Assembly: GCF_024346315.1 (NCBI RefSeq)
Contig: NZ_JAGQCS010000003.1
Location: 1 to 64,000, forward strand
Length of the DNA stretch: 64,000 nt
From: Cyanobium sp. ATX 6F1
GTDB taxonomy: Bacteria > Cyanobacteriota > Cyanobacteriia > PCC-6307 > Cyanobiaceae
Reading direction: 5' to 3'
Position 1 is the first letter of the stretch; every line of letters starts with the position of its first letter. The notes under the pieces were generated by a model. The model made no database searches and was not told the DNA's origin. It was given only the letters and a program-made list of their open reading frames with translations. Positions 1,009 through 19,733 of the stretch are shown one piece after another. The translations under genes and the position numbers were made by a program.

Positions 1009-1015
1009 GTTAGAT
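1009..1015 (+). other. Candidate integron recombination boundary (R' box GTTAGAT)
   Basis: GTTAGAT fits the R' consensus GTTRRRY of integron recombination sites. It is the exact reverse complement of the R'' box ATCTAAC at 2056-2062. Cassettes are cut between G and TT, so a cassette starting at 1010 with TTAGAT would, on circularisation, restore perfect pairing with its own R''. The remainder of an upstream attI or attC is not recognisable, so the site may be decayed. Confidence 0.45.
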
Positions 1016-1065
1016 TGTGGTGAATTTTTAAGATCACCGGTTCATAGAAAGCTTGGAGGAAACCC

Positions 1066-2061
1066 ATGAAAGCGATTGTGTACACAGAATACGGGGCACC
1101 GGATGTTCTTCAGCTCAAAGAGGTGGAAAAACCTACGCCAAAGGATAATGAAGTTCTGATAAAAGTCTATGCGGCAACCGTAACCACAGGGGACGTGAAC
1201 GTTCGGGGGTTTACCTTTGTCCCTCCCGGATTCGGGCCCCTACCACGATTAATGTTTGGTCTTAGAAGGCCAAAAAGAACAATCCTGGGGACTGAGCTGG
1301 CTGGAGAAATTGAAGCCGTAGGCAAAGGCGTGAAATCATTTAAGAAGGGTGACCACGTTTTTGGCATCGGCTCAGATAGCTTCGGCGCTTATGCCGAGTA
1401 TGTGTGTCGGCCTGAAGCAGGGGCATTAGCAATGAAGCCGGCCTTTGTAACACACGAGGAAGCTGCCGCTCTTCCTTTTGGAGCGGGAACTGCCTTGTTC
1501 TTTCTGAGAGATATGGCGAAGATTCAGCGCGGACAAAAAGTCCTGATCAATGGCGCTTCTGGAGGGGTCGGTACTTATGCGGTTCAACTTGCCAGGTACT
1601 ATGAGGCAGAAGTCACCGGGGTATGCAGTGCCACGAATTTAGAATTGGTGAAATCCCTGGGGGCCGATAAGGTCATTGATTACACCCAAGAGAATTTTAT
1701 CCAAAATGGTGAGTTGTACGACATCATCTTGGACACAGTCGTAGGCAAGACTTCGTTTTCACGTTGTAAGAACTCCCTGAAGCAAAAGGGACTTTATCTC
1801 GCAGTGGCCGGCGGGCCACAGGAGTTGATTCAAATGCTATGGACTTCCATAATCGGCGGGAAGAAAGTGTTGTTTGGGTCGCCAACCGAGTGCAAAGAAG
1901 ATCTAATGTTCATCAAAGAACTGATTGAGGCGGGGAAGATAAGAGCAGTCATCGATAGACGTTATCCCTTGGAGCAGATTGCCGAGGCGCACCGTTACGT
2001 GGACAAAGGACACAAAAGAGGAAACGTAGTGATAACTCTGGAACAGAGTGGCACAATCTAA
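1066..2061 (+). CDS. MDR-family NAD(P)-dependent oxidoreductase (quinone reductase-like)
   Basis: This 331-residue protein is a cytoplasmic medium-chain dehydrogenase/reductase. The N-terminus [20 protein letters not shown] and the nucleotide-binding loop [15 protein letters not shown] (about residues 160-175) place it among zinc-free NADPH:quinone or enone reductases; no structural-zinc Cys cluster is seen. The substrate cannot be deduced. The ATG has a GGAGG about 8 nt upstream. The gene is visibly AT-richer than the core genes, and its TAA stop lies inside the attC-like R'' box (2056-2062), the classic arrangement of an integron cassette gene. It reads as intact and horizontally acquired. 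Confidence 0.85.
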
Positions 2062-2125
2062 CAACGGAAAGCAGCCGACATGGCTCCGCTCTGCTCCGCA
2101 AGGCAACTGAATCCGACCGTTAGCC
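2056..2125 (+). other. attC-like integron cassette recombination site
   Basis: The 70-bp element begins with ATCTAAC (fits RYYYAAC, R'') and ends with GTTAGCC (2119-2125, close to GTTRRRY, R'). CTAAC and GTTAG pair exactly; the inner arms (CAG near 2072 and CTG near 2107) are only weakly complementary. Size is within the usual attC range. The upstream stop codon sits within R'' and the next gene starts 37 nt after R', both typical of cassette arrays. The two boundaries at 1009 and 2119 define a 1,110-bp cassette. A folding model run would be decisive. Confidence 0.55.
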
Positions 2126-19411: not shown

Positions 19412-19608
19412 TTAGAGGCTTTTAGACCCTTCTCCATAGGCTTGGCCGTGATTCTCGGGTGCGAGAACCACTTGTTCATGACGCCACACAATGTCTGCCG
19501 GGTTGCGGACACAAACGGCCCACGATTGAGAACATTGATATAGATCATGGTCGTGCTCACGTTTTGATGGTGCAGAAGTTCCCTGATCGTGTGGATGTCC
19601 TGGCTGCC
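19412..19608 (-). pseudogene. Integron integrase (IntI-type tyrosine recombinase), C-terminal relic
   Basis: The minus strand encodes SQDIHTIRELLHHQNVSTT followed by MIYINVLNRGP, the catalytic C-terminal block of IntI proteins (typical DIRTVQELLGHxDVxTTMIYTHVLNRG), with the nucleophilic Tyr kept. After a frameshift near 19520 the other frame gives VRNPADIVWRHE, matching the IntI ending (V)RSPxD. Upstream, a KWRYPLSPRQL segment may be what is left of the FPS region, but the catalytic Arg/His box HSFATHLL is missing. Stop TAA is at 19412-19414. Non-functional; likely orientation would put any attI and cassettes to the right. Confidence 0.7.
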
Positions 19609-19733
19609 CTGCAGTTGACGAGGGGAAAGCGGGTAGCGCCACTTCAAGTCATTGGAGAACAGCCTTGAGGCATCCCGTGGCGTTGTCAATCCATTCCGCT
19701 GTGCTGGCCTGAGCGCTGTAGCCCAGGCCTCCC

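Follow-up and report, generated by a model that had tools for sequence, protein, structure and literature searches.

A probable degraded integron gene cassette with a lone attC site in a cyanobacterial genome

The start of contig C3 of the Cyanobium genome studied here (G000) very probably holds, at about positions 982-2119 of the 64,000-nucleotide stretch that was analysed (the window), a degraded integron gene cassette with a lone attC site. The layout is that of a cassette, since the sequence and the list of reading frames show one ORF with short flanks and its stop codon inside the R'' box. The confidence in this reading has been slightly lowered because R2, the second of two attC covariance models described below, found no attC beside most relatives tested. 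The features, all on the + strand, are the following:

982-988, + strand: probable left cassette boundary GCTGGAT, replacing GTTGGGT/ATTAGGT of homologous leaders (leader alignment)
989-1065, + strand: cassette leader with ribosome-binding site, containing GTTAGAT at 1009-1015 (match to the nhmmer leader profile)
1066-2061, + strand: intact 331-aa zinc-binding-dehydrogenase/quinone-oxidoreductase-like protein (Pfam PF13602, PF08240 and PF00107 above cut-offs)
2056-2125, + strand: attC site, worn (covariance models R1 and R2)
2056-2062, + strand: R'' box ATCTAAC, with the stop codon TAA at 2059-2061 inside it (sequence)
2066-2077, + strand: L'' box GGAAA-G-CAGCCG, with G2071 at the place of the extrahelical base (R1 and R2 alignment)
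2104-2114, + strand: L' box CAACTGAATCC (R1 and R2 alignment)
2119-2125, + strand: R' box GTTAGCC, the right cassette boundary (sequence)
2162-2383, + strand: broken VOC/glyoxalase-like gene start, a 73-aa ORF (Glyoxalase_4 E=0.16, below cut-off)

The preliminary description of this DNA had named two short strings, GTTAGAT (1009-1015) and ATCTAAC (2056-2062), and both are present as noted; the R' box at 2119-2125 reads GTTAGCC. It had also pointed to a stop codon inside R'' and a gene beginning soon after R', which agrees with TAA at 2059-2061 and ATG at 2162. The gene product is a putative oxidoreductase, for which the Pfam and NCBIfam matches assign the family and do not specify the substrate; with NCBIfam, at least 25 of the 29 models were below cut-off. 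No promoter-like site was found in the leader at 989-1065. The G+C content is about 47-53% across the oxidoreductase gene versus 58-65% across the sulfatase gene downstream.

The attC-like element was evaluated with two covariance models that were both built without the window sequence. Pattern scans close to integrases had given attC-like sites in G000, its congener G001 and the cyanobacterium G006, and the geometry of R1 was taken from the host attC (R box, spacers of 3 and 4, one extrahelical base). R1 was trained on nine attC sites, namely seven from the pattern scans, one from a genome of the same family (locus L015, genome G031) and one from a Chloroflexota genome (L155). R2 was iterated from R1 matches and its E-values are rough; its training set comprised 80 R1 matches at E<=0.005 from 35 loci searched with the window left out, including ten G000 sites. 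The covariance test proposed in the preliminary description was significant with both models, and the only match at E<=10 in the 64 kb was the element it had pointed to, 2056-2125 on the + strand (R1: 17.1 bits, E=0.034; R2: 28.9 bits, E=2.8e-5). R'', L'', L' and R' are present in this order at the 3' end of the oxidoreductase ORF in both alignments, and the unfiltered R1 score was 17.1 bits on the + strand versus 0.9 bits on the - strand. The R1 score by itself would not be sufficient for genome-wide significance. In the genome-wide R2 search of G000, for which 150 of 2110 candidates were scored, 2056-2125 is absent from the matches listed.

The controls comprised 24 stretches with 480 kb in total, 400 kb from five genomes of the family and 80 kb from contig C9 of the same genome away from its two attC sites. 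The top R2 match therein reached 14.4 bits. Among the matches listed for ten genomes of the family without an integron integrase over cut-off, the highest R2 score was 20.4 bits, with the number of candidates scored being capped in five of the ten. The 28.9 bits of the window site against the best control in 480 kb, together with the position of the element exactly at the stop codon, argue strongly against the view that there is no cassette at all and that a laterally acquired gene carries an attC-like tail by chance, which is regarded as very improbable. Collectively, the element at 2056-2125 is most likely a real attC. Two simpler searches had seemed to refute it until the models in the host register were built: a strict RYYYAAC...GTTRRRY scan gave 0 matches in the window, and a looser scan by arm complementarity ranked 2056-2125 39th of 68. 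At gathering thresholds, Rfam reported nothing in the window besides one tRNA. Between the VOC remnant and the sulfatase gene, at 2651-2740, a very weak R2 signal was observed without filtering (8.3 bits, E=0.2), which is probably due to chance.

The site is worn. The bottom-strand fold, the other test proposed in the preliminary description, was no better than that of shuffled sequences: the DNA fold of 2056-2125 has z=0.55, and 134 of 200 shuffles fold equally well or better. When compared with 300 shuffles, P was 0.58 for arm complementarity and 0.38 for energy, hence these fold tests did not reveal a well-paired hairpin on the bottom strand, notwithstanding G2071 in the extrahelical place. 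The expectation of extrahelical bases was thus borne out for one base in the right place and not for the fold around it. In the same test, 26 other attC-like sites, a comparison set that was partly preselected for pairing, gave P<=0.02 in 21 cases for energy and in 20 for the arms. The weakness of the hairpin against shuffles is a point in favour of a chance tail. When set in the register of the host attC, the site keeps 7 of its 11 L-box pairs and has 4 broken ones, and at least 7 such pairs occurred in only 1 of 429 control R''/R' spacings. At least 7 pairs in the host register are also found in 56 of the 80 R2 training sites, while the 24 with fewer pairs perhaps represent other attC types with another register. 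Because of the four broken pairs and the weak fold, the cassette is regarded as a worn descendant, for which no activity is claimed.

The left edge of the cassette likely differs from the one assumed before. The preliminary description had taken GTTAGAT at 1009 as the cassette boundary and proposed that circularisation of the unit would pair the R boxes perfectly. GTTAGAT is indeed complementary to R'', yet it lies inside the leader. The part of the leader that begins at 1009 shows homology to six other leaders (nhmmer, E=1.4e-14, aligned 1009-1094; the profile consisted of these six leaders and the first 30 coding bases of each), and the Chloroflexota locus L026 has GTTAGAT at the equal leader-internal place. 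Furthermore, in its fit to five homologous leaders the stretch 982-1011 ranks above 99.5% of 8572 window positions (p=0.0045, pooled), with p-values of single alignments upstream of 1009 from 0.0025 (L039) up to 0.49 (L102). A boundary-like heptamer is found about 22-26 nt upstream of the GTTAGAT place in L102, L026 and L039, and only in L102 does it terminate a modelled attC (18.3 bits); this upstream attC ends with ATTAGGT, which starts 71 bp before the ATG. At that leader place, L026, L039 and L099 have GTTGGGT, and the alignment puts GCTGGAT (982-988) there in the window. Hence, the left edge is probably situated at about 982, with the GTT core lost. Since GTTAGAT is leader-internal in L026 and the homologous boundary probably lies at 982, its perfect match to R'' is probably a coincidence, and the circle with perfectly paired R boxes is not sustained. 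For the same reasons, and with the L boxes worn, the cassette can hardly be called nearly intact. The position of GTTAGAT inside a homologous leader is a second point in favour of there being no cassette. A fuzzy leader-start pattern had no match in the window, and the initial view that the homology to L026 starts at GTTAGAT 1009, where blastn and nhmmer begin, was dropped because global alignments suggest an extension to 982.

The closest relatives of the oxidoreductase were found in Chloroflexota, with 73% and 70% identity; this comparison covered 79 loci, drawn from the 80 top-ranking of 151 stretches. In a quick tree of 113 rows, from which copies with less than 50% identity, less than 300 aa or inner stops had been dropped, the window protein groups with two Chloroflexota proteins (SH-aLRT 97), apart from a clade with the proteins of G001, G036 and Methylobacter (SH-aLRT 100). 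In that clade, the oxidoreductases of the cyanobacteria G001 and G036 are joined with a Methylobacter copy (L101, L104 and L032; SH-aLRT 100), which suggests, as far as the tree goes, an exchange of the gene between phyla. All relatives on plasmids were below 60% identity, and none were found in viral contigs, neither for the oxidoreductase nor for the VOC fragment. The plasmids also gave no match to the attC region or the VOC fragment, and the segment 2001-2200 had no match in 386 genomes of the phylum besides its own.

A stop codon inside RYYYAAC was observed in 9 of 139 copies of the family including the window versus 2 among the 645 other ORF ends of these loci; without the window the count is 8 of 138 (Fisher p=2.6e-5), whereby the copies are related and not independent. 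Two relatives have a cassette context, which speaks against a chance tail as well. The gene of the cyanobacterium G050 (L102) is flanked by two attC matches, for which R2 gave 18.3 bits (E=0.029) and 34.3 bits; the intI of this genome is on another contig. The copy of a Methylobacter MAG (L032) is flanked by attC-like sites as well, a weak one with 13.9 bits (E=0.4) and one with 25.9 bits, and shares its contig with intI. In G001, which belongs to the same genus as the host, a 59% identical homolog follows a run of five attC matches at a distance of about 670 bp, and no attC was detected behind the gene at E<=5. With R2 at E<=5, no attC was found in nine further loci (L022, L026, L027, L034, L035, L039, L049, L099 and L100), hence the cassette form is model-supported in few relatives; this absence beside most relatives tested is the third point that would fit a gene with a chance tail. 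L103 and L104 likewise have no attC beside their oxidoreductase copies (E<=1). Gene ends or leaders in several of the R2-negative loci, for example the tails of L026 and L035, look attC-like by eye only. An integron integrase over cut-off is present in 7 of 23 genomes with family members.

The host possesses an integron of its own. It encodes a full-length IntI of 329 aa without inner stops (C9:41774-42706; 445 bits, cut-off 265). With R1, G000 has 11 attC sites at E<=0.5, two on C9 (C9:43623 and the well-paired C9:45089-45173), four consecutive ones on C11, two on C4 and one each on C1, C5 and C3 (the last with E=0.24). With R2, among the 150 of 2110 candidates scored, at least 16 sites were found at E<=10, at least 14 at E<=0.05 and at least 13 at E<=0.001. 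Since intI exceeds the cut-off only on contig C9 and the window is located on C3, the earlier view of a single attC cassette away from a full integron integrase is supported. The cassette is 1 kb away from an end of contig C3. In the host integron (L011, G000:C9:41774-45173), the attC sites lie behind the 3' end of intI on the same strand; the classical integron layout is the reverse of this. In the window itself, a 120-aa frame on the - strand matches weakly the end of the integron-integrase model at 19519-19620 (26.8 bits, cut-off 265) and likely represents part of a different tyrosine recombinase; matches of this kind below the cut-off were seen in all 14 control genomes. Because psaA/psaB are present, G000 is regarded as a cyanobacterium; among the 14 control genomes these genes were detected only in Synechococcus elongatus, and the same test identified G001, G006, G031, G036, G042, G050, G051 and G054 likewise as cyanobacteria. 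The word picocyanobacterial in the preliminary description would suit the genome size.

The surroundings of the cassette bear on the question how it came to its present place. The VOC-like fragment at 2162-2383, whose start is 36 bp downstream of R', comes with a GGAGG resembling a ribosome-binding site directly behind R' and is possibly the remnant of a second cassette. It might be the next cassette in the stump of a former multi-cassette array (CALIN), whose other attC sites were lost by rearrangement. Such an origin is conceivable, if less than even in probability. The runs of attC sites in G000 and its congener G001 and the recently duplicated 3' end of a Clp-type ATPase gene upstream would be in line with it. 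However, besides 2056-2125 the unfiltered R2 search of 850-2800 gave nothing above 8.3 bits (E=0.2), and the only relative found for the VOC fragment was a 32% match in a single genome out of 299 from the Methylobacter phylum, with none in plasmids or viral contigs. The segment 223-451 is a recent segmental copy upstream of the cassette: it has 98% identity to its original at G000:C13:2378-2607, where a Clp-type AAA ATPase gene (Pfam AAA_2, ClpB_D2-small) contributes its 3' end together with the DNA that follows. Further upstream, 24-157 is 75% similar to two places on contig C12 and represents a repeat fragment at the contig end. No empty site was found, and collinearity with the congener G001 begins only at about 2743-2759.

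The segmental copy indicates another recent rearrangement nearby and would also suit plain DNA uptake, in which the gene arrived with its attC already attached and was inserted by ordinary recombination without the host integrase. This is considered rather unlikely. A 9 kb tandem in a Chloroflexota MAG (L026) is relevant in this regard. It contains five full family members and one running off the end, and also holds a 31-residue fragment and a distant (30%) family member. The tails of the copies look attC-like by eye, with no R2 match, and the genome has no integron integrase over cut-off; hence, such DNA may exist outside integrons. Against plain uptake, the host has a full-length intI and lone attC sites in several places that are explicable by off-target insertion, and among 80 attC-like sites the one that fits the arms of the window attC best is L015, from a genome of the same family. 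A direct correspondence between the window attC and the tail of L026 had been considered and was dropped, because the arms of the window site are matched equally well or better by 9 of 80 other sites.

Returning to the degraded cassette as the preferred reading, the gene would once have been carried as a circle by an integron integrase. The cassette might then have come to lie away from the present integron through off-target insertion, or it might be left over from a broken array. Later mutation would have eroded the inner stem and the GTT core of the left edge while the oxidoreductase ORF stayed open. With the inner stem and the left GTT core worn, excision has therefore probably become inefficient or been lost. 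In a wider reading, regarded as rather unlikely, cyanobacteria of this family with a working integron would scatter cassettes over the chromosome, the lone cassette among them, whereby genes of other phyla are captured and parked outside the integron and, with the decay of their attC, turn into ordinary chromosomal genes. The gene types to which this refers are a Chloroflexota-type oxidoreductase in G000 and, in G001 and G036, a type that Methylobacter also has.

With this cassette, one gene family is seen adjoining attC sites in more than one phylum. Moreover, a captured gene has maybe been caught with its attC wearing away and its ORF still open. Lone attC sites in a cyanobacterium that bears an integrase would allow a test of how cassettes settle as chromosomal genes. 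The concept of the integron as such is not changed by the window cassette. The preliminary description had implied that a cassette is odd in a cyanobacterium; this finds no support in view of the intI and further attC sites in the same genome and of cyanobacterial integrons in print, hence the cassette is not unprecedented and is rather an instructive case of gene capture. Integrons in both Cyanobacteria and Chloroflexota are mentioned by PMC8618304 and PMC9668308, and an attC model for Cyanobacteria was built in PMC8352920. In PMC5101192, the word integron occurs in a reference only.

Among known systems, the window cassette resembles SALIN and CALIN in having an attC and an ORF of cassette form on a contig without a full integron integrase. 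SALIN denotes a single attC without an integrase nearby. CALIN denotes a cluster of attC sites without an integrase according to PMC8618304 and PMC9668308. The window differs from both in that its genome has a full-length integrase elsewhere and that its attC is worn; it also differs from a CALIN, which has at least two attC sites, by having one at E<=10 in 64 kb. From a complete integron it is distinguished by the lack of an adjoining intI, which is over cut-off only on C9. With cyanobacterial chromosomal integrons it shares the geometry of the host attC as captured in R1 (spacers 3 and 4, one extrahelical base), whereas its site lies outside an array and has the L-box mismatches AA/AA and CC/AA. 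Off-target insertion of cassettes at attG sites has been described by Loot et al. (2024) as cited in PMC12901181; the lone position of the window cassette away from the integron is similar. Finally, the cassettes of L032 and L102 carry the same protein family between attC-like sites, with R'' overlapping the stop codon in L102 as in the window and lying behind it in L032. They differ from the window cassette in protein sequence (about 60% identity) and in the R2 score of the right-hand attC, which is 25.9 bits in L032 and 34.3 bits in L102 compared to 28.9 bits in the window.
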